DNA from: Xanthomonas sp.
GTDB taxonomy: Bacteria; Pseudomonadota; Gammaproteobacteria; Xanthomonadales; Xanthomonadaceae
Assembly: GCA_018262705.1 (NCBI GenBank)
Contig: JADFDQ010000003.1
Location: forward strand, 124,001 to 188,000
Length of the DNA: 64,000 nt
Reading direction: 5' to 3'
Part shown: positions 39,783-50,751 of the stretch, one piece after another
How the letters are laid out: each line of letters opens with the position of its first letter
How positions within the stretch are numbered: the first letter of the stretch is position 1
Notes under the pieces: model-generated
Told to the model about the DNA's origin: nothing
Databases searched by the model: none
Seen by the model: the letters and a program-made list of their open reading frames with translations, nothing else
Made by a program: the position numbers and the translations under genes

Positions 39783-40184
39783 ATGGCGCAGCAAGGCGAC
39801 TCCGACTCCGGCCTCAAGGGCCTGCGAGTGATGATCATCGACGATTCGCGGACGATTCGGCGCACGGCGGAAACGCTGCTTTCGCGCGAAGGCTGCGATG
39901 TCGTCACCGCGACCGACGGGTTTGAAGCGCTGTCCAAGATCGCGGATCACTCGCCGCAGATCATTTTCGTGGACATCATGATGCCCAGGCTCGACGGATA
40001 TCAGACCTGCGCGTTGATCAAGAACAATCAGACGTTCAAAAGTGTGCCGGTCATCATGCTTTCGTCGAAAGACGGTTTGTTCGATAAGGCGCGAGGCCGT
40101 ATCGTCGGCTCCGAGCAGTATCTCACCAAGCCGTTTACGCGGGAGGAGTTGCTCGGTGCGATCCGCACCTACGTGAACGCTTGA
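39783..40184 (+). CDS. pilG: type IV pilus response regulator PilG
   Basis: A 133-residue single-domain CheY-like regulator. Acidic pocket in MIIDDSRTIRRTAE, phospho-acceptor Asp in IIFVDIMMPRLDGYQ, Thr/Ser position in IMLSSKDG, and Lys in YLTKPFTRE. In Pseudomonas PilG signals from the Chp kinase to PilB-driven extension and twitching. Preceded by AAGGGGA. First gene of the pilGHIJ-chp operon, divergent from gshB. Confidence 0.95.
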   Translation: MAQQGDSDSGLKGLRVMIIDDSRTIRRTAETLLSREGCDVVTATDGFEALSKIADHSPQIIFVDIMMPRLDGYQTCALIKNNQTFKSVPVIMLSSKDGLFDKARGRIVGSEQYLTKPFTREELLGAIRTYVNA

Positions 40185-40200: not shown

Positions 40201-40566
40201 GTGGCACGTATCCTGTTGATTGAGGACTCACCGACCGAGGCCGCCGTCATGGTTCAGTTGCTGCAACGCAACGGGCATGACGTCAGCACGGCGGGTAATG
40301 CCGAAGACGGGATCGACGTCTGCCGCAAGACCAAGCCGGATTTGGTCCTGATGGACGTGATCCTGCCGGGCATGAACGGGTTTCAGGCAACGCGCCTGCT
40401 GTCGCGCGATGCCGAGACCAAGAGCATCCCCGTACTCATCGTGAGCACCAAGGGTCTGGACACCGACCGGGTCTGGGGCCTGCGGCAAGGGGCGAAGGAT
40501 TACATCGTCAAACCACCGCGCGAGAGCGACTTGATCGCGCGCATCAACGCACTGATCGGACACTGA
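40201..40566 (+). CDS. pilH: type IV pilus response regulator PilH
   Basis: A 121-residue CheY-like protein starting with GTG (VARILLIEDSPTEAAVMVQLL), phospho-acceptor Asp in LVLMDVILPGMNGFQ, and Lys in YIVKPPRESDL. PilH is the second output of the Chp system, linked to retraction and phosphate sink function in Pseudomonas. GGGGAAGG ends 5 bases upstream of the GTG. It begins 16 bases after pilG. Confidence 0.95.
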   Translation: MARILLIEDSPTEAAVMVQLLQRNGHDVSTAGNAEDGIDVCRKTKPDLVLMDVILPGMNGFQATRLLSRDAETKSIPVLIVSTKGLDTDRVWGLRQGAKDYIVKPPRESDLIARINALIGH

Positions 40567-40569
40567 CGC

Positions 40570-41478
40570 ATGGCCAAGCGCGGCAAACAGAAGCAGAAAC
40601 AGAAAGGCAAACCGGCAGCGGAAACCCCCGCACGCGTGGCCGCCGAATCTGCGGCTTCTGCGGCCGACGCGGCAGGCGGAGCCGCCGAGGAGACGCAGGA
40701 ACCTGCGGATGCGGAAGCCGTTGCCGGAGCCGTCGAAGCGGAAACGGCCGCCGATCCGGTTGCCCAGGAAACGCACTCCGCCGGGGCCGTGGTCGAAGAA
40801 TCGCCCGCTGCCGAATTCATGGAGGCGGCGGCCGACGAGGCGGAGACCGTCGCTGCAGCCGGGCCGGAGGTCGAAGCCGCGGAGTCTGCGGCGGCCGTCG
40901 CGCCGGTGCGCAAACCCAAGCCCAAACGTGCGGCGCGGCCACGCGACCCGCGTTCGCCGTTTCTGGTGCTAGCCGATTATGAGCAGCGCAGTTTGAACCA
41001 CGTCGCCGGTTTGCCGGAGCAGCTGGAGGCTCCGGGACTGTGGCGCGGCGTGGCCTATCGGATCGGAAGTCGGCGGCTTGCCTCCGGTTTCGAAGAGGTG
41101 CTGGAGATCCTGCCGCTGCCGTCGGTCACCCACATCCCCGGCTCGCTGCCGTGGATGCTGGGCGTCGCCAACGTCCGCGGCACGCTGCTGCCGGTGGTCG
41201 ACCTCAAGCAGTTCCTCGAGGGCGAACGCACCGTGCTGCAGGAAAAACAGCGCGTGCTGGTGGTTCACCAGCCCGGCGGCGATGTTGCCGTCATCATCGA
41301 CGAGTTGTACGGACAACGCAGTTTCGTCGATGCCCAAAGCGTGGATGCAACCGCCATCGCCGATGGCCGCTATGCTTATTTCGTCGAACGCGCGTATCGC
41401 CACGATGGCAGCGATTGGGGCGTTTTCAGCCTCGACCGCCTTTCCCGAACCCCCGAATTCCGCCAAGCCGCCGCCTGA
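40570..41478 (+). CDS. pilI: CheW-like coupling protein PilI with a long acidic N-terminal extension
   Basis: A 302-residue protein. The C-terminal 185 residues are the PilI-type CheW domain (GVAYRIGSRRLASGFEEVLEIL, VTHIPGSLPWMLGVANVRG, LLPVVDLKQFL, VAVIIDELYG), coupling PilJ to the ChpA kinase. The first 118 residues are low complexity: a Lys/Gln-rich start (KRGKQKQKQKGK), about 75 residues dominated by Ala, Glu and Asp, and a basic segment (RKPKPKRAARPRD). Typical PilI is about 178 residues. The start is an ATG 4 bases after the pilH stop. Confidence 0.93.
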   Translation: MAKRGKQKQKQKGKPAAETPARVAAESAASAADAAGGAAEETQEPADAEAVAGAVEAETAADPVAQETHSAGAVVEESPAAEFMEAAADEAETVAAAGPEVEAAESAAAVAPVRKPKPKRAARPRDPRSPFLVLADYEQRSLNHVAGLPEQLEAPGLWRGVAYRIGSRRLASGFEEVLEILPLPSVTHIPGSLPWMLGVANVRGTLLPVVDLKQFLEGERTVLQEKQRVLVVHQPGGDVAVIIDELYGQRSFVDAQSVDATAIADGRYAYFVERAYRHDGSDWGVFSLDRLSRTPEFRQAAA

Positions 41479-41511: not shown

Positions 41512-43527
41512 ATGAGCACGATGATGGATACTGCCGCCGGCAAGGGCCGCAATCTCAGCACCAACTTCTGGATCTGGCTGCTGATCGTTTCGCTGGCCGT
41601 CTTTGCCGTCAACACGCTGTATTCGACGACCAAGGCCGCGCGCCTCGGCGGCGCCAGTACCTCGGCTTCTCGTCTGCAGTTGAACTCGCAGCGCATGGCC
41701 AACCAGAGCCGCGAAGCGATCGACGGCAACGCGCAGGCGTTCGAGGAGTTCCAGGCAACCAAGAGCGAAATCGACGAGGACATCAAGTCTCTGAACGAGC
41801 GCTTTGGCGACACTGCCGGCGTGGCCGGACCGATCCGCACGGTGACGGCGACTTGGTCGCCGCTGGCCAAGCGCGCCGAGGAAGTGCAGGCCTCGCAGTC
41901 CGCGGTGCTGGCGCTGGCGGGCCACGCCGACAGCTTCACCGGCAAGGTGCCGCAGCTGCAGGCGCAGCTCAGCGAAGCGGTGCGCGGACTGGCTTCGGGC
42001 GGCGCGACTTCGGCACAGCTGTTCACGGCGTTGAACGAAGTGGTGACCTCGGCTTCGATGGCCCGACGCATCGCCGAATTGCGCGCCGGTGGCGAAGGTG
42101 CGCAGGTCGCCGCCGATGCGCTGGGCCGCGACGCGGCGGTGTTCGAACGCCAGCTGAGCGCGCTGCGCGAGGGCGGCGGCGATATCGCCAAGGTGACGGC
42201 CGCCGGCGCGCTGGCGCCGCTCAATCAGGCGGCCGCGCTGTGGCAGGGCATGAAAAAAGATCTGGACGCCATCGTCGGCGATTCCGGCAAGCTGATCGGC
42301 GCGCAAACTTCGGCGGCCGCATTGGTCAACGGCTCCGACAAGCTGCTGGGCGACAGTGAAAAACTGTTCGCGGCGTTCACCTCGTTCGGCTCGCTCAAGG
42401 ACACCAGCCTGTTCGGCGGCGTCTGGGTGAGCATCATCTCCGGTGTGGTGGCGTTGTTCTCCATCGTCGGCCTGCTCTGGGCACTGGGTCGCGCGCAGCG
42501 GGTTCGCTACCAGACCACCAAGGAACTGAACGACCGCAACCAGGAAGCGATCATGCGCTTGCTGGACGAAATGGGTTCGCTCGCGGAAGGCGACCTGACC
42601 GTGAAGGCGACCGTGACCGAGGACATGACCGGCGCGATCGCGGACTCGATCAACTTCGCCGTGGAGCAGCTGCGCACCCTGGTGACCACCATCAACGACA
42701 CCTCGGTGCAGGTGGCGGCGAACGCGCAGGAAACCCAGGCGACCGCCATGCATCTGGCCGACGCGGCCGAGCATCAGGCGCAGGAAATCAACTCCGCCAC
42801 CGATCGCATCAACGAAATCGCAGCCAGCATCAACCAGGTGTCGCGCAGCTCCGCCGACTCCGCCGAGGTGGCGCGGCGCTCGGTGCAGATCGCGACCAAT
42901 GGTGCCGGCGTGGTGCGGCAGACGATCGCCGGCATGGACAGCATTCGCGACCAGATCCAGGAAACCTCCAAGCGTATCAAGCGACTGGGCGAAAGTTCGC
43001 AGGAAATCGGCTCGATCGTGGAACTGATCAACGACATTTCCGAGCAGACCAACATCCTCGCGCTGAACGCGGCCATTCAGGCGGCCTCGGCCGGTGAGGC
43101 GGGCCGCGGGTTCGCGGTGGTGGCGGACGAAGTGCAGCGCCTCGCGGAACGCTCTTCCAACGCGACCAAACGTATCGAATCGCTGGTGCAGACCATTCAG
43201 GCCGATACCAACGAAGCGGTGTCCTCAATGGAGCAGACGACCTCGGAAGTGGTCGCCGGTGCGCGCCTGGCCGAGGACGCCGGTACCGCGCTGGGCGAGA
43301 TTGAAAAGGTGTCGTCCGACCTGTCGGGCCTGATTGAAGGCATCTCGGTAGCGTCGCAGGAGCAGTCCAGCGCGGCGACCAACATCACCCAAGCCATGAA
43401 CACGATTCAGGCGATTACCGCGCAGACCTCGCAGGGTGCCAGCCAGACCGCCGAGTCGATCGGCAATCTGGCGCAGCTCGCCGCGGATCTGCGGCGTTCG
43501 GTCGCCGACTTCAAGCTGCCGGCCTGA
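41512..43527 (+). CDS. pilJ: type IV pilus chemoreceptor PilJ
   Basis: A 671-residue membrane methyl-accepting protein. Transmembrane helix 1 at about 18-40 ([20 protein letters not shown]), a 250-residue periplasmic part with PilJ helical repeats, helix 2 at about 302-325 ([20 protein letters not shown]), HAMP, and a signalling domain with the tip hairpin around [42 protein letters not shown] lies 7 bases before the ATG. In Pseudomonas PilJ senses pilin interactions. No pilK methyltransferase gene follows. Confidence 0.94.
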
Positions 43528-43589
43528 TCGCGAGCACCTGAGGTGTTCGCGATGAGCGGTTCCTTCCTGGCCAGCCCCGCCCAGCGGGG
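43528..43589 (+). other. two hairpins between pilJ and chpA
   Basis: At 43528-43552, TCGCGAG-CACC pairs with GGTG-TTCGCGA around TGA (11 bp including one G-U). At 43575-43589, CCCCGC pairs with GCGGGG around CCA. They begin at the base after the pilJ stop and end 18 bases before the chpA start. They may pause transcription or set the ratio of receptor to kinase. Neither has a T run. Confidence 0.6.
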
Positions 43590-43607
43590 CCTTACCGGAA
43601 TCAAGAT

Positions 43608-46600
43608 ATGACGACGGCACTGCGGGACGCCATCGACCAAACTGCACTCGGTTGGGTGAAGCCGGAGATCGACGAGACCCTGCGCCAAGCGCGGATCGAT
43701 CTCGAAGGTTTCGCGGGGGCGCCGGACGACGCGTCGCCGATGAATTCCTGCATCAGCGGAATGCATCAGATCTTCGGAACCTTGAAGATGCTGGAATTGC
43801 AGGCGCCGGCGCTGGTGGCCGGCGAGATGGAACAGGTGGCGGTGGCCCTGCTCGGGGAAACCACCTCCAATCGCGATGAGGCGCTGGCCGTGCTGATGCG
43901 CGGCATGGTGCAACTGCCCGATTATCTGGAACGGCTGCAGGGCGGACATCGCGACATCCCGATCGTGCTGCTGCCGCTGATCAACGAACTGCGCGCGGTG
44001 CGCGGCGCCGAGCCGATGTCGCAGGACGACCTGCCGGCGCTGGTGGTCGAGCCGACCGAGGCCGAAATCGAACACGCGCGCGGCAGCCTTGCCGGACGCA
44101 ATCGGGCGCTGCTCGATACCGTGTCCGCCGCAATCAAGGAAGACCTGCTGCGGGTCAAGGACGCGCTGGATCTGTATTTGCGCGGCGTACGCGGCAATGT
44201 CGAAGAACTGATGCCGCAGGCCGAAGCGCTGACGCGAATCGGCGACACGCTGGCGATGCTCGGTCTGGAAAAGGCGCGAGGCGTGATCCACCAGCAGCGC
44301 CAGCTCGTGCACGACATCGCCAGTGGCGCCCGGGTGTCGAGCGAAGCCGATCTCATCGAAGCGGCCGGCGCGTTGATTTCTGTCGAACATTCTCTGGATG
44401 ACCAGGTCGCGGACCTGAGCGGCGGTTCGAATGGTGATGAAGACCAGCAGGCGCAAGAATCGCGCAAGGTCATTGGCGTGCTGTCGCGCGCCGCGGTCGC
44501 CAATTTTGGCGAAGTTCGCGGCGCCTTCGTCGCCTTCATCGAAACCAACTGGGATCACGGCGCGCTCAAGCGCGTTCCCGATCTGCTGACCGAAGTGTCC
44601 GGCGCCATGCGCATTCTCGAACTGCCGGAACCCGCCGGCTATCTGGATGCGCTGCGTGAATATTCCCGGCGTGAGTTGATCAATCACAGGCGCGTCCCGG
44701 ACGGCGTGCAGCTCGATACGCTCGCCGATGCGCTGTCGAGCATGGAGTATTTCCTGGAATCGCTGCACGATCCGCGCGACACCCGCAGCGATCTGCTGGG
44801 CAAGACCCGTTCCAGCCTGGAATTGTTGCGCTACTGGCCGATTCCCGAAGCGCTGCCGGAAGACGCCATCGAGGCGGCTTCGGAACAAGCCGCTCAAGAA
44901 GCGAAGGCTGCCGCGACAACGGAAACGGCCGCAGCAAGCGTCGCCGCCGAAGCCGAAGCGCAGGCCGCCGAACCCGCGGCGGCCGCAGCTGTCGTGGTGG
45001 CGGTCGCTCAGGGTGGCGCTGGCATCAATGCCGGGTTCGACACCGCGAGCGAAGAAATCGACGACGAAATTCGCGAAATCTTCGTCGAGGAGTTCCAGGA
45101 AGAGCTGGCCAATCTCGACGAACTGCTGCCGCCGTGGCGTCTGGCTCCGGACGATGTCGAACTGCTGCGGCCGATCCGTCGCGTGTTCCATACCCTGAAG
45201 GGCAGCGGCCGGCTGGTGGGTGCCAGGCTGCTTGGCGAATTCAGCTGGCACGTCGAGAGCATGCTCAACCGCGTGCTCGATGGATCTCGCCCGGCGAGCT
45301 ATGCCGTGGTCGCGTTTTTGGGTGAGGTCACCTCGATCCTTCCGAAGTTGCACGCGGCGCTACGCGGCGAACCCGGGTTCGACGTGGATATCGCCGCTTA
45401 CGAAGCGGTCGCCGATCGCCTGGCGGCCGGCGAAGACGTGCTGATGCAGGCGGCGCCAGCCGTCGCTCGGGAAACGGCCCCTGCGGAAACGGAAGCCGCC
45501 GAAGAGACCGTCGCAGAGCCGGCTGCGGAAGCGGAAACCGTTGCAGTTGCAGTCGATCCGGTGCTGCTGGAAATCCTGGGTTCGGAGGTGGGAGGACATC
45601 TCGAAACGGTCGATGCCTGGCTTGCGCAGGCGCGCTCGGGGCAGGCACTTCCCAGCGACGCGCTGGTGCGTGCGATCCATACCCTCAATGGCGCTTTCGC
45701 GATGACCGAAGTGCCGAGCGTGACCGAGTTCACGGCGCCGGCAGAAGGCTACGTCAGGCGGCTGCTTGCCGCACAGACCGAAGCCGATGCGGATGGCATC
45801 GAAGCGATCGCCAGCGTGGCCGATGCGGTTCGCGCAAGCACGGCGGCGTTGCAGAATCAGCCGGAGCAGGTTCCGGTCTACCGCGTTTTGGCCGAGCGCA
45901 TGGCGGCGCTGCGGGATACGCTGCCCGAACCGAGCGTGCCGTTTATCGATCAGGCGGCAGCCGAAGCCCAGCGCGAAGCCGAGGCGCAGGCTGTCGCAGA
46001 AGAAGCGGCGCGGCTCGAAGCCGAACGGCTTGCCGCCGAGCAGGCCGAAGCCGAACGCGTTGCAGCCGAACAGGCTGCGGCAGAAGAAGCGGCGCGGCTC
46101 GAAGCCGAACGGCTTGCCGCCGAGCAGGCCGAAGCCGAACGCGTTGCTGCCGAACAGGCTGCGGCCGAAGAAGCGGCGCGGCTCGAAGCCGAGCAGGCCG
46201 AATCCGAGCACCTTGCTGCAGAACAGGCGGAAACCGAAGGGCTTGCAGCCGAGCAGGCTGCGGCAGAAGAAGCGGCCCGGCTCGAAGCCGAACGGCTTGC
46301 CGCCGAACAGGCCGAAGCCGAACGCGTTGCCGCCGAGCAGGCCGAAGCCGAACGCGTTGCCGCCGAACAGGCCGAAGCCGAACGCGTTGCCGCCGAACAG
46401 GCCGAAGCCGAACGCGTTGCCGCCGAACAGGCCGAAGCCGAACGCGTTGCCGCCGAACAGGCCGAAGCCGAACGCGTTGCCGCCGAACAGGCCGAAGCCG
46501 AACGCGTTGCCGCCGAGCGGGCCGAAGCCGAACGCGTTGCCGCCGAGCGGGCTGCTGCCGAAGAAGCGACGCGGCTCGAGGGCGAACGCAAGGAGGTCGA

Positions 46601-49301
46601 ACGCATTGCCGCGGCGCGTGCGGAAGCCGAGCGCGCAGAAGCCGCGCGTATCGCGGCCGAGCGCCGCGAAGCCGAACGGCGCGAAGCCGAGCGGCGCGCT
46701 GCAGAAGCGTCTGCGTTTGCCAAGGCGCGCGAGGAAGCGGCGCTGGCCTCCCTGCTGGCGACCGCAACGGCAGCCGAGGATCCGGACGCGCCGCTCGACA
46801 CAGGCGATCTGGACATTGAGCTGGTCGATATCTTTGTCGAGGAAGGCAACGACCTGCTCGATCACTCCGACGGCCTGCTGGCGCAGCTGCGCGAAAACAG
46901 CGAAGACGGCGAAGACGAAGAGTTGATCGTCGGCCTGCAGCGCGACCTGCACACCTTCAAGGGCGGTGCGCGCATGTCCGGCATGATGTCGGTCGGCGAA
47001 CTCGGTCACGCGATGGAATCGCTGCTGGAAGCGATAGCCATGCGGCGCGCGACGTTGGGTGGAGACGGCGTGCGCCTGTTGGAGCGCGGGTTCGACCGCT
47101 TGCGCGACATGGTCACGCGCATCGCGGCGCGCCGCGCCGTCGGTCTTCCAACGATGCTCATCGAGGAATTCCAGGCACGCGCGGAGAACCGCGCTTACGA
47201 AGCGGCCGAGCCTGTTACCACGGAACAAGCGCAGCCATCGCAAGCGCAGGAGCCTGCGGAAACTGCGCAGGCGGAATCTGCCGAGTCGGCCCAAGCCATC
47301 CCGGAGGCGGCCGAATCTTCCGAAACGGCGCCCGAACCCGCTGGCAAACAGCCGGCCGAGATGGCGACCGAGCCCGTCACGGTTCCCGCCAAGGTCGCGG
47401 TGCTCAAACCGCTGTCGGCGCCGATCGGAGAGATGGCGATCGGAGCGGACGACGATGCATCCGTACGCGCGCCGCAGGAGCAGGTGCGCATCCGCGCCGA
47501 TCTGCTCGACCGTCTGGTGAACTACGCCGGCGAAGTCGCGATTTATCGCGCCCGTCTTGAGCAGCAGCTCGCCGCGTTCCGCGCAACCGCGCAGGAAATG
47601 GAGCGCACCAACGATCGTCTGCGCGATCAGCTGCGTCGACTCGATTCCGAAACCGAAGCGCAGATCATGGCGCGCTACCAGCGCCAGAACGATGCCGGGG
47701 ATGAAAGCTTCGATCCGCTGGAACTCGACCGTTTCAGCACCCTGCAGCAGCTCTCGCGCGCGCTGGCCGAGTCGGCGGCGGACTTGCAGAGCTTGCACGG
47801 TTCGATGGAAGACCTGACCCGCCAGTACGAGACGCTGCTGACCCAGCAGTCGCGGGTGAGCTCGGATCTGCAGGAAGGCCTCATGCGCACGCGCATGCTT
47901 CCGCTGGATTCGCTGCTGCCGCGCTTGCGCCGGGTGGTGCGTCAGGCCGCCGGCGAGACCGGAAAGCAGGCGGCGCTGCGGGTCGACGGAGCCCAGGGCG
48001 AACTCGACCGGAGCGTGATCGAACGCATGACGGCCCCGCTGGAGCACATGCTCCGCAACGCGGTGGCGCATGGTCTGGAGGCGCCGGCAACCCGCGCGCA
48101 GCTCGGAAAGCCGCTGGAAGGCACGATCCGCATCGCGGTTCGCAACGAGGGCTCGGAAGTCGTGCTGGAGGTCGGCGACGACGGTGGCGGACTCAATCGC
48201 GACGCGATCCGTTCACGCGCGATTTCGCGCAATCTCATCCAGCCGGATGCGGTTCTGACCGACGGCGAACTGGATCGGATGATCTTCGAGCCGGGCTTCT
48301 CCACGGCCGAATCCGTGAGTCGGCTGGCCGGTCGCGGCGTCGGCATGGACGTGGTGTCCAGCGAAGTTCGCCAGCTCGGCGGCACGATCGAAATCCGTTC
48401 GAAGGAAGGCGAAGGCACGACCTTCGTACTGCGCCTGCCGCAGACGCTGGCGGTAACCCAGGCGGTGTTCGTCAAGATCGGCGAAATCGAGTACGCGGTG
48501 CCGATCGCCTCAGTGCGCGGCGTGGGCCGCATCCCGCGCGAAGATCTGGCCAAGTCCGATGCGGTCTATCGCTACGGCGGCGAAGACTACGCGCTGCACG
48601 ATCTCGGTTCGCTGGTTGGTGCGCCGACGGCGAAGGCGGAAGGCCATTTGCAGATGCCGTTGCTGCTGATCGGCTCGGGCGATCTGCGCGCCGCAGTGGC
48701 GATCGATCAGGTGCTGGGCAGCCGCGAAATCGTGGTGAAGGACGGCGGTCCGCAGATGGCCGCATTGCCCGGCGTCTTCGGCGCCACCATCATGGGCGAT
48801 GGCCGCGTGGTCGTCATCCTCGACATTGCGCCGCTGGTGCGCCGCTATGCGTCGATGGCGCAGACCGCCGTGCCGACCGAAATCGAGGCCGTCGAGGAGC
48901 TGCGTCGGGTTCCGCTGGTCATGGTGGTGGACGACTCGGTCACCATGCGCAAGGTCAGCGGGCGCGTGCTGGAGCGCCACGGTTTCGAGGTGGCCACGGC
49001 GAAGGACGGCCTCGATGCGTTGGAACACATGATCGATCTGGTGCCGGATCTGATGCTGCTCGACATCGAAATGCCGCGCATGGACGGCTACGAGCTGGCG
49101 ACGGCGATGAAGGCCGACCCGCGCCTGCGCAACATTCCGATCATCATGATCACCTCGCGAACCGGCGAGAAGCATCGCCAGCGTGCGATCGACATCGGCG
49201 TCGAACGCTACCTCGGCAAGCCGTATCAGGAAGCCGAACTGATGCGCAACGTGTTCGAGCTGCTCAAGCTGGAGCGCGTCAGCGACGGTAGTCTGCAATG
49301 A
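43608..49301 (+). CDS. chpA: Chp hybrid histidine kinase ChpA/PilL
   Basis: An 1897-residue multi-Hpt CheA-like kinase of the type IV pilus chemosensory system. Hpt-like domains: one near 45-75 (MHQIFGTLKMLEL), one near 490-560 with HTLKGSGRLV, one near 650-720 with HTLNGAFAM, and one near 1080-1140 with HTFKGGARM. A fifth, near 325 (LLTEVSGAMRILEL), lacks the His. Residues about 797-1044 are an Ala/Glu/Arg repeat region. The CheA core follows: dimerisation (1315-1430), N box HMLRNAVAHGLEAP near 1480, GDDGGGL, GRGVGMDVV; then a CheW-like domain (1615-1750) and a C-terminal receiver (1768-1890) with DDSVTMRKVSG and LLDIEMPRMDGYE. GGAA precedes the ATG. Confidence 0.94.
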   Translation: MTTALRDAIDQTALGWVKPEIDETLRQARIDLEGFAGAPDDASPMNSCISGMHQIFGTLKMLELQAPALVAGEMEQVAVALLGETTSNRDEALAVLMRGMVQLPDYLERLQGGHRDIPIVLLPLINELRAVRGAEPMSQDDLPALVVEPTEAEIEHARGSLAGRNRALLDTVSAAIKEDLLRVKDALDLYLRGVRGNVEELMPQAEALTRIGDTLAMLGLEKARGVIHQQRQLVHDIASGARVSSEADLIEAAGALISVEHSLDDQVADLSGGSNGDEDQQAQESRKVIGVLSRAAVANFGEVRGAFVAFIETNWDHGALKRVPDLLTEVSGAMRILELPEPAGYLDALREYSRRELINHRRVPDGVQLDTLADALSSMEYFLESLHDPRDTRSDLLGKTRSSLELLRYWPIPEALPEDAIEAASEQAAQEAKAAATTETAAASVAAEAEAQAAEPAAAAAVVVAVAQGGAGINAGFDTASEEIDDEIREIFVEEFQEELANLDELLPPWRLAPDDVELLRPIRRVFHTLKGSGRLVGARLLGEFSWHVESMLNRVLDGSRPASYAVVAFLGEVTSILPKLHAALRGEPGFDVDIAAYEAVADRLAAGEDVLMQAAPAVARETAPAETEAAEETVAEPAAEAETVAVAVDPVLLEILGSEVGGHLETVDAWLAQARSGQALPSDALVRAIHTLNGAFAMTEVPSVTEFTAPAEGYVRRLLAAQTEADADGIEAIASVADAVRASTAALQNQPEQVPVYRVLAERMAALRDTLPEPSVPFIDQAAAEAQREAEAQAVAEEAARLEAERLAAEQAEAERVAAEQAAAEEAARLEAERLAAEQAEAERVAAEQAAAEEAARLEAEQAESEHLAAEQAETEGLAAEQAAAEEAARLEAERLAAEQAEAERVAAEQAEAERVAAEQAEAERVAAEQAEAERVAAEQAEAERVAAEQAEAERVAAEQAEAERVAAERAEAERVAAERAAAEEATRLEGERKEVERIAAARAEAERAEAARIAAERREAERREAERRAAEASAFAKAREEAALASLLATATAAEDPDAPLDTGDLDIELVDIFVEEGNDLLDHSDGLLAQLRENSEDGEDEELIVGLQRDLHTFKGGARMSGMMSVGELGHAMESLLEAIAMRRATLGGDGVRLLERGFDRLRDMVTRIAARRAVGLPTMLIEEFQARAENRAYEAAEPVTTEQAQPSQAQEPAETAQAESAESAQAIPEAAESSETAPEPAGKQPAEMATEPVTVPAKVAVLKPLSAPIGEMAIGADDDASVRAPQEQVRIRADLLDRLVNYAGEVAIYRARLEQQLAAFRATAQEMERTNDRLRDQLRRLDSETEAQIMARYQRQNDAGDESFDPLELDRFSTLQQLSRALAESAADLQSLHGSMEDLTRQYETLLTQQSRVSSDLQEGLMRTRMLPLDSLLPRLRRVVRQAAGETGKQAALRVDGAQGELDRSVIERMTAPLEHMLRNAVAHGLEAPATRAQLGKPLEGTIRIAVRNEGSEVVLEVGDDGGGLNRDAIRSRAISRNLIQPDAVLTDGELDRMIFEPGFSTAESVSRLAGRGVGMDVVSSEVRQLGGTIEIRSKEGEGTTFVLRLPQTLAVTQAVFVKIGEIEYAVPIASVRGVGRIPREDLAKSDAVYRYGGEDYALHDLGSLVGAPTAKAEGHLQMPLLLIGSGDLRAAVAIDQVLGSREIVVKDGGPQMAALPGVFGATIMGDGRVVVILDIAPLVRRYASMAQTAVPTEIEAVEELRRVPLVMVVDDSVTMRKVSGRVLERHGFEVATAKDGLDALEHMIDLVPDLMLLDIEMPRMDGYELATAMKADPRLRNIPIIMITSRTGEKHRQRAIDIGVERYLGKPYQEAELMRNVFELLKLERVSDGSLQ
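46321..46530 (+). repeat. 30-bp coding minisatellite in chpA
   Basis: Seven near-identical 30-base units (AACGCGTTGCCGCCGAACAG then GCCGAAGCCG), with a degenerate copy on each flank, encoding the 10-residue repeat ERVAAEQAEA. Upstream, at about 46000-46290, is a longer repeat of about 84 bases encoding EEAARLEAERLAAEQAEAER in three partial copies. In-frame expansion or contraction by slippage is expected. Confidence 0.95.
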
Positions 49302-50272
49302 CAGCCTCGAGGGTGGTCGTGCTGGCCAAGGCCGGCGCAGCCTGCGACCGCACCCTCGAGGCGGTGAAGCAGGCCGGCGCCGAGCTGGTGGCGACGCTGG
49401 ATCCGACCACGGTCTCGGAATCCGATGTGCGCGTCGATGCGCCGGATGCGGTTCTCGTCGTGCTCGATGCGGCGACGGAATCGGCGCTGGGAAAATTCGA
49501 CGATCTGTTCGCGGATCCTGCGCTGGATGTGCTGTTCGACGATGCCGAGGTCGCAGTGAAGCGCACCGGCTGGGAGGCCGCACGCTGGGCGCGGCATCTT
49601 GCGGCCAAGCTTTCGGGCAGCGGCAATGTGTTGCCGGCGGCGGTCGAATCCGACGGGGCGAAGGGTTTCGAGGCGGAGATGCAGGAGCTGACGCTGGCCG
49701 TCGCGACGTTGCCTCAGGATTCGCCGCGACCGGCCGCGGCCGCCAAGCTTCCCGATGGCGCGGTGGTCATTGTTGCCGGCGTTGGCGGGCCGGATGCGGT
49801 GCGCCAGTTTTTGGGCGGGCTGCCGTCGACTTTTCCGCGCGCGGTTCTGCTGCGGCAACGCATCGAAGGCGCCCAATACGATCGGCTGATGCGGCAGATG
49901 CAGCGGGCATCGCAAATGCAGGTCGCACTTGCCCAGGCCGGCGACGTGCCGCAGCGCGGCACCGTCTATGTGATGCCCGATGGGCTCGACGTGCGTGCCG
50001 CCGGAACGGATCTGGTGTTTGCGGAAACCCAGGGAGAGCCGCGTTTCGCGGCGCTGCGTGCCTCCGACAGTGCGATGCTCCTGCTCAGTGGCGCCGAAAT
50101 CGCCATGGTCGATGTGGCGCTGACGATGTCGCTGGCCGGCGCTCTGGTGTTCGGCCAGGCGCCCGATAACTGCTTCGATCCAGCTGCAAGCCAAGCCCTC
50201 GTTGCCCGCGGTGGCGGCTCGCGCAGCCTGGTCATCATGGTGCAACAACTTCAACAGCGCTGGTCTTCCTGA
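49298..50272 (+). CDS. chpB: CheB-like protein of the Chp cluster with a lost catalytic triad
   Basis: A 324-residue protein at the chpB position. The C-terminal 180 residues have a CheB methylesterase-like layout (VVIVAGVGGPDAVRQFLGGL, PRAVLLRQRIEGAQYDRL, GTVYVMPDGLDV, AMLLLSGAEIAMVDVAL). In CheB the motif reads GxSxGGP with Ser as nucleophile; here the position is Gly (AGVGGPD). The expected QHMP His is replaced by RQR, and the GxGxDG Asp segment by SGAEIA. The N-terminal 130 residues lack a receiver-domain phosphorylation site. It overlaps chpA by 4 bases (ATGA). I infer a non-enzymatic role; calling it chpB rests on position and residual similarity. Confidence 0.7.
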   Translation: MTASRVVVLAKAGAACDRTLEAVKQAGAELVATLDPTTVSESDVRVDAPDAVLVVLDAATESALGKFDDLFADPALDVLFDDAEVAVKRTGWEAARWARHLAAKLSGSGNVLPAAVESDGAKGFEAEMQELTLAVATLPQDSPRPAAAAKLPDGAVVIVAGVGGPDAVRQFLGGLPSTFPRAVLLRQRIEGAQYDRLMRQMQRASQMQVALAQAGDVPQRGTVYVMPDGLDVRAAGTDLVFAETQGEPRFAALRASDSAMLLLSGAEIAMVDVALTMSLAGALVFGQAPDNCFDPAASQALVARGGGSRSLVIMVQQLQQRWSS

Positions 50273-50280
50273 GGTATCCC

Positions 50281-50751
50281 ATGGCCGACATTTCCCACAT
50301 CATTCGCGGCGTGTTGATCCAGGTGGCTGGAACGCGCCTGCTGCTACCCAACGCAGCGATCGCCGAAGTGCTGTCTTTTGCCCCGCCGGAACCGATTGAC
50401 GGTGCGCCGGATTGGCTGCTTGGCCGCATCCGCTGGCGTGGTTGGAACGTGCCGTTGGTCGCGTTCTCGCGGTATTCGGAAATTTCCGAAGAACAGGGCG
50501 GATTGGGCAGCAAGGTGATCGTACTCAAGGCCTTGGGCGGCGACACCAAGCGCCCCTACTTCGCCATCCTGACCCAGGGCTTCCCGCGGCTGGTGACGGT
50601 GACCGATTCGGCGCTGGTGCGGCTCGACGAAGGCGAGGAGCTTGCCGATGGCGTGCTGTCTCGGGTGCGCCTGAATCAGGATGACGCCGTCGTGCCCGAT
50701 CTTGTCGGACTGGAAGAAAGCCTGCGCGAAGCGCTCGCGGCGGTCGCCTGA
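50281..50751 (+). CDS. chpC: CheW-like protein ChpC
   Basis: A 156-residue second CheW-domain coupling protein at the end of the cluster (IRGVLIQVAGTRLLLPNAAIAEVLS, GAPDWLLGRIRWRGWNVPLVAF, YFAILTQGFPRLVTVTD). ChpC in Pseudomonas is a linker for ChpA to other receptors. It begins 9 bases after the previous stop, behind GAGG (CTGAGGTATCCCATG). A strong inverted repeat ends the operon right after its stop. Confidence 0.9.
   Translation: MADISHIIRGVLIQVAGTRLLLPNAAIAEVLSFAPPEPIDGAPDWLLGRIRWRGWNVPLVAFSRYSEISEEQGGLGSKVIVLKALGGDTKRPYFAILTQGFPRLVTVTDSALVRLDEGEELADGVLSRVRLNQDDAVVPDLVGLEESLREALAAVA

Follow-up and report, generated by a model that had tools for sequence, protein, structure and literature searches.

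A ChpB-like protein without a catalytic triad in a pilK-less Pil-Chp cluster of Xanthomonas sp. and its family: probably a retained, non-catalytic component

The window analysed here, a stretch of 64,000 nucleotides from Xanthomonas sp. (contig JADFDQ010000003.1, positions 124,001 to 188,000), contains a complete pilG-pilH-pilI-pilJ-chpA-chpB-chpC cluster, which follows the gene order of Pil-Chp (Tfp-class) systems and has no gene for the PilK methyltransferase. In Pseudomonas aeruginosa the order is pilG-H-I-J-pilK-chpA-chpB-chpC, with PilK acting as the methyltransferase and ChpB as the methylesterase. An earlier note on this DNA had proposed that chpA directly follows pilJ here and that PilJ keeps its signalling domain. 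Both proposals hold, the two genes being separated by 80 nucleotides and the receptor giving an MCPsignal match of 3.5e-43. The ChpB-like protein itself has lost all three residues of the catalytic triad, and we consider that it is probably a pseudoenzyme, kept as a non-catalytic part of the Pil-Chp system, a role deduced from comparisons of sequences and genomes.

The loss of the triad was assessed by profile searches and alignment. Pfam PF01339 (CheB_methylest) matches residues 156-306 with an E-value of 3.1e-15 (56.8 bits against a cut-off of 24), and a profile of the domain (A2) matched only CheB structures at E < 0.001. In an alignment with Escherichia coli CheB, whose triad we take to be numbered S164/H190/D286, the corresponding residues are G161, R188 and A269, leaving none of the catalytic Ser, His and Asp in place. 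The assumed numbers agree with the triad S165-H191-D287 of the Pectobacterium atrosepticum CheB structure (PMC7698151; the papers cited by PMC number were available in part, and statements about them refer to the available text). The Gly at the nucleophile position had already been pointed out in the earlier note. The same note held that the His and Asp segments are lacking: the segments are in fact present and alignable (LLRQRIEGAQYD for His and LLLSGAEIAMVD for Asp), and it is the catalytic His and Asp that have gone. Since the single His of the whole protein, H100, lies outside the catalytic domain, no Ser-His-Asp triad is possible within that domain, and a search for a rearranged triad found none. 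A triad rebuilt from other residues can be dismissed as the domain contains no conserved His. An alignment artefact can be dismissed too, as members throughout the family carry the Gly in one and the same loop, mostly AGxGGPDA, and this loop lines up with the ASIGGPDA of pilK-bearing members of that family. Position 294 is occupied by Asp (D294) in 75 of 75 family sequences, by Val in E. coli CheB, and by Asp or Glu in the others read.

The partner enzymes were sought throughout the genome (2,490,595 bases, 99.92% complete). There were no matches to CheR, none to CheD and, for CheB, none besides the protein described here, while the only chemoreceptor (methyl-accepting chemotaxis protein, MCP) found is PilJ. 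A pilK located elsewhere in the genome is thereby ruled out, as is CheD as a substitute. As the earlier note had supposed, neither half of the adaptation cycle remains, CheR having no match and ChpB no triad.

The same state is found family-wide, far beyond the single genome in which it was first noticed. Our order sample comprised 299 genomes, 79 of them from the own family (Lysobacteraceae = Xanthomonadaceae, order Lysobacterales), and matches to PilG and ChpB were present in all 79. The clusters of all 78 own-family relatives were fetched, along with hand-picked sets of 61 loci from the 210 other genomes of the order with PilG and 40 loci from the 64 class genomes that lie outside the family and have PilG. 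We called pilK absent on the basis of the pilJ-chpA gap or a PilK profile; for G280 and G284, whose contigs are split, its absence rests on the zero count of CheR in the genome, and in L018, where the start of the chpA open reading frame (ORF) is over-extended, the PilK profile shows pilK to be present. In 77 of the 79 own-family genomes (74 fetched loci, the window and 2 more), Gly at the nucleophile position is combined with absence of pilK, and the occurrence of the same Gly in 77 of 77 pilK-less genomes points to more than chance. The remaining two (G091 and G237) keep both pilK and Ser-His-Asp. Among the 74 fetched loci with Gly, 66 have neither His nor Asp, 6 retain just the His and 2 retain both residues, which suggests that Ser was the first to be lost. 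A ChpB match was obtained in 26 of 28 further family genomes: 22 of these have Gly, whatever their pilK state, and four (G479, G482, G460, G463) have pilK with Ser-His-Asp. Each of the 80 named relatives read, the best 80 out of 450, has Gly as well, but the set was found with patterns including GGPDA and RHL and is consequently biased to this type. The 18 closest loci among the named relatives, at 53-74% identity, include 12 labelled Thermomonas, the rest bearing names of higher rank only, which puts the DNA of the window in the genus Thermomonas. No CheR at all is present in 22 of the 79 family genomes (20 listed with zero, with G290 and G294 absent from the match list).

The state of the triad is linked to the presence of pilK. 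Where pilK is present and ChpB readable, the triad is intact in 34 of 35 loci, a tally from which L085, L093, L132 and L174, which end before chpB, and L102, in which chpB is cut, were left out. The exception is the class locus L158, with a truncated chpB ORF and a chpA split in two frames; the broken genes of this locus may reflect decay or an assembly error. The pilK-less loci, by comparison, divide into 91 with degenerate ChpB (88 fetched, the window and 2 more) and 11 with an intact triad. Both genes are present in 11 of the 40 class loci and neither in 24, 20 of the latter being read through to chpC; of the rest, L174 ends after pilK and four have no pilJ-chpA pair. In none of the 40 was chpB seen without pilK by profile or BLAST score, measures that a very remote ChpB could escape. 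Within the sample, ChpB without PilK is confined to four families of this order, f1, f5, f11 and f12.

The history of these changes was read from a 167-taxon tree built on PilG, PilJ and the C-terminus of ChpA, with L182 as root and 13 loci dropped for incomplete genes. L063 seems out of place in it, its chpA being truncated by a contig end. The two pilK-bearing members branch basally within the family, and the Gly forms make up one clade with a support of 1.0. The crown Lysobacteraceae ancestor would seem to have lost pilK and exchanged the ChpB nucleophile Ser for Gly, with His and Asp eroding afterwards. A second, separate loss of the triad took place in family f12 by another route, the number of events being a reading of the tree without a formal test: in 11 of its 13 dead forms (L109-L121), Ser is replaced by Thr or Ala, with His and Asp kept. 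Different again from the other dead forms are L118 (EQD), L119 (SPG) and, in f5, L081 (SSE). In the 11 loci where pilK is gone and the triad intact (L094-L101, L103, L105 and L107), seven genomes (L096, L097, L099, L100, L101, L103 and L105) are absent from the CheR match list and have no CheD; these could be natural intermediates, or their CheB could be acting as a deamidase only.

The dead domain is under purifying selection and is not simply decaying. The median ratio of nonsynonymous to synonymous substitution rates (dN/dS), taken over 23 pairs for each part of the protein, comes to 0.150 in the N-terminal part (maximum 0.574) and 0.146 in the dead catalytic part (maximum 0.544). For comparison, the medians are 0.104 for chpC (23 pairs), 0.119 for pilI (19), 0.086 for pilJ (19) and 0.049 for pilG (16). 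Of 148 windows of ten residues along the dead domain in the family, the one with the lowest entropy is the former nucleophile loop, residues 160-169 (0.26 bits, the domain averaging 1.46). In the f12 dead forms this loop varies (1.46, with an average of 1.16). The His and Asp loops stand out less, 24 and 62 of the 148 windows, respectively, being as low. Fifteen positions reach a conservation of at least 93% in the family and differ in intact ChpB; seven of them (161, 166, 189, 192, 263, 294 and 297) fall within the old active-site segments or next to them.

The N-terminal domain is shared with catalytically intact ChpB proteins. Within its GWxxARWxRHLxAKL stretch, the residues G, W, R, W, R, H, L, A and K are invariant in the 16 rows of alignment A3, in intact and dead proteins alike. 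The corresponding profile matched response regulators only at an E-value of 0.025 or worse, the one better match being a designed protein, and on such evidence the domain is possibly a vestigial receiver. The ChpB of the window and its nearest relatives are short (about 320-350 residues), most other members of the family having 390-840 residues owing to longer linkers.

The receptor has changed as well. The predicted methylation sites of P. aeruginosa PilJ are Q412/E413, Q623/Q624 and Q639/E640 (PMC10896506), and the PilJ of the window shows the same spacings at an offset of -6, the third pair having become QA. Among the 47 receptors whose loci have pilK or an intact triad, 45 keep this pair as E/Q; the group is composed of 36 pilK-bearing loci (6 with truncated or unread ChpB, including L158) and 11 pilK-less loci with an intact triad. 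Of the rest, 41 of 123 do so: the own family contributes 16 of its 73, the other dead forms 11 of 14 and loci without ChpB 14 of 36.

A protein of this kind would hardly be able to hydrolyse PilJ methyl esters or to deamidate PilJ. With no known PilJ-modifying enzyme left in this genome, the Pil-Chp system most likely runs without covalent receptor adaptation, and the ChpB-like protein would have been kept for a non-catalytic function. Docking of ChpB into the polar PilG/PilJ/ChpA assembly most likely falls to the conserved N-terminal domain with its ARWxRHLxAK helix. For the former active-site loop, which is still highly conserved, the most likely task is to bind a partner without turnover, the cytoplasmic bundle of PilJ, as the old substrate, being the obvious candidate. 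We take Xylella to belong to the own-family clade. Knockouts in X. fastidiosa, including that of chpB, significantly reduced twitching, and natural competence was unchanged in the chpB knockout (PMC9956873); this ChpB enters the comparison by its phenotype, not its sequence. The role of scaffold suggested in the earlier note fits both the conservation and the X. fastidiosa knockout, short of being demonstrated.

Several points weigh against a retained, non-catalytic ChpB. The pocket was mapped by sequence only, and both interaction and activity are inferred. Only 7 of the 15 family-specific positions are near the old active-site segments, the other 8 lying elsewhere, and these are sequence positions rather than spatial distances. 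Relative to the core Chp proteins, the dead domain evolves faster than intact ChpB from pilK-bearing loci (median ratio 1.99 vs 1.69), and it does so in every band of core distance: 2.87 vs 2.28 (0.1-0.2), 1.84 vs 1.68 (0.2-0.3) and 1.75 vs 1.66 (0.3-0.4). The f12 dead forms are faster still, at 3.06 overall. Two of the 28 further family genomes (G447 and G461, each listed as 99% complete) have no ChpB match, a putative loss of chpB is reported in one X. fastidiosa strain (PMC8176220), and in each of G260, G459 and G468 one in-frame stop was flagged inside the ChpB-matching stretch. These stops may lie at the frame end or mark a broken gene. As for PilJ, the first two predicted sites are kept in the own family (73 of 73 and 70 of 73), and the third survives in most of the other dead forms, this weak erosion in f12 loosening any simple link; the PilJ counts are, moreover, not phylogenetically independent, and Fisher values were not read as probabilities.

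The faster evolution, the two genomes without a ChpB match and the flagged stops would also suit slow decay, in which a functionless protein has its frame preserved by translational coupling between chpA and chpC. The layout of the genes would allow this: the chpB-like ORF starts inside the chpA stop codon, with an overlap of 4 nucleotides, and chpC follows 8 nucleotides downstream. We nevertheless think slow decay unlikely, given that dN/dS is near 0.15 in both halves of the protein, that all 77 pilK-less genomes of the own family in the order sample keep the frame open across the old nucleophile loop and that this very loop is the most conserved window. Furthermore, the operon can do without chpB, since pilK and chpB are both gone in the 20 class loci read to chpC.

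Strict conservation of the loop, together with the gain of D294 beside the invariant C292, would also fit a new active site, a changed pocket made of G161, D166 and D294 with the older Q200, S264, Q287 and C292 and devoted to other chemistry or to a small ligand. Against this, the domain is without a conserved His, its only solved relatives at E < 0.001 are CheB proteins, and intact ChpB conserves Q200, S264, Q287 and C292 to the same or almost the same degree, so that they may serve the fold alone; new chemistry thus appears improbable. Hardly more persuasive is a brake, whereby the dead ChpB would occupy the methylation helices of PilJ and fix ChpA activity as a standing substitute for demethylation. 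Such an inhibitor, the other role suggested in the earlier note, would be in keeping with retention of the old nucleophile loop and with the changed third site of PilJ in the same family, but the X. fastidiosa chpB knockout twitches less (PMC9956873), which a pure brake would not simply predict.

Returning to a ChpB kept as a non-catalytic component, its broadest form, offered here tentatively and with some doubt, is that at least two losses of receptor methylation turned the modifying enzyme into a permanent non-catalytic subunit, the Lysobacteraceae cleft having been rebuilt as a binding surface to which PilJ is matched. Were that true, pilus steering in most of the family would depend on a receptor free of methylation and held by a dead methylesterase. 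In chemosensory systems, receptor methylation is regarded as the core of adaptation. In this case the pilus receptor of a large family, with Xanthomonas, Stenotrophomonas, Lysobacter, Luteimonas, Pseudoxanthomonas and Thermomonas among its records, is without a dedicated methyltransferase in the genomes read, and the eraser persists without its active site. A structural and a catalytic role of ChpB would be separated in these organisms, which provide natural material for asking what ChpB does at the pole.

The features discussed are collected in Table 1. Within chpA, positions 45987-46698 hold a long tandem repeat array rich in Ala, Glu and Arg, with units of 15, 30 and 84 bases, the 30-base unit being present in 17.8 copies over 46016-46546.

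Table 1. Positions, in the window, of the Pil-Chp genes and of the ChpB and PilJ features described in the text.
Feature	Positions	Strand	Description	Evidence or remark
chpB-like gene	49298..50272	+	324-residue ChpB/CheB-family protein without catalytic triad	ORF, Pfam, alignment
N-terminal domain	49298..49657	+	ChpB residues 1-120	common to catalytically intact ChpB
GWxxARWxRHLxAKL stretch	49568..49612	+	ChpB residues 91-105	
Former nucleophile loop	49775..49804	+	ChpB residues 160-169, AGVGGPDAVR; G161 at Ser164 position	lowest-entropy 10-residue window in family
R188	49859..49861	+	at catalytic His190 position	
A269	50102..50104	+	at catalytic Asp286 position	
C292-F293-D294	50171..50179	+		Cys also common in intact ChpB (0.90)
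pilG	39783..40184	+	CheY-like	
pilH	40201..40566	+	CheY-like	
pilI	40570..41478	+	CheW-like	
pilJ	41512..43527	+	only MCP found in genome	
PilJ Q406/E407	42727..42732	+	by spacing, predicted site Q412/E413	kept
PilJ E617/Q618	43360..43365	+	equivalent of Q623/Q624	kept as E/Q
PilJ Q633/A634	43408..43413	+	equivalent of Q639/E640	pair lost (QA)
pilJ-chpA gap	43528..43607	+	80 nucleotides	site of pilK in pilK-bearing relatives
chpA	43608..49301	+	hybrid kinase: 4 Hpt stretches, HATPase, CheW, receiver	
chpC	50281..50751	+	CheW-like	

A literature search recognised no report of a triad-less ChpB in the text available, most subscription journals being outside its coverage, so that this is no proof of the matter being unpublished. 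The missing pilK is already published (for Lysobacter capsici), the dead triad being without a recognised report. Like its P. aeruginosa counterpart, the ChpB of the window is encoded between chpA and chpC, in the order given at the outset, and has a CheB-family C-terminal domain; unlike it, it has neither a triad nor a PilK partner, the P. aeruginosa protein being known here by description, not by sequence. That protein is located at the leading pole in a PilG-dependent manner, and its receiver part is not believed to undergo phosphorylation (PMC12632253). The catalytic domain is homologous over most of its length to those of the CheB methylesterase/glutamine deamidase structures (PDB 3sft, 6ymz, 1chd and 1a2o; 2.1e-11 to 5e-7), from which it differs in the replacement of Ser, His and Asp and in the absence of CheR from its genome.

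Closest in gene content is the Pil-Chp system of Lysobacter capsici AZ78, of the same family, published as pilGHIJ-chpABC with pilK missing (PMC4960238); the likeness is one of gene content, and the available text does not speak of the ChpB active site. Methylation genes are also reduced in Acinetobacter, where pilK and chpB are absent (PMC8088505, PMC9596432), and in Ralstonia, where chpB and chpC are absent (PMC7056806); in contrast to the window, no dead ChpB is described for either in the parts of these papers available. The degenerate ChpB of f12 resembles that of the window in having been kept, without a full triad, after the loss of pilK, and it differs in its Thr or Ala, with the His and Asp retained in 11 of 13, and in its variable nucleophile loop.

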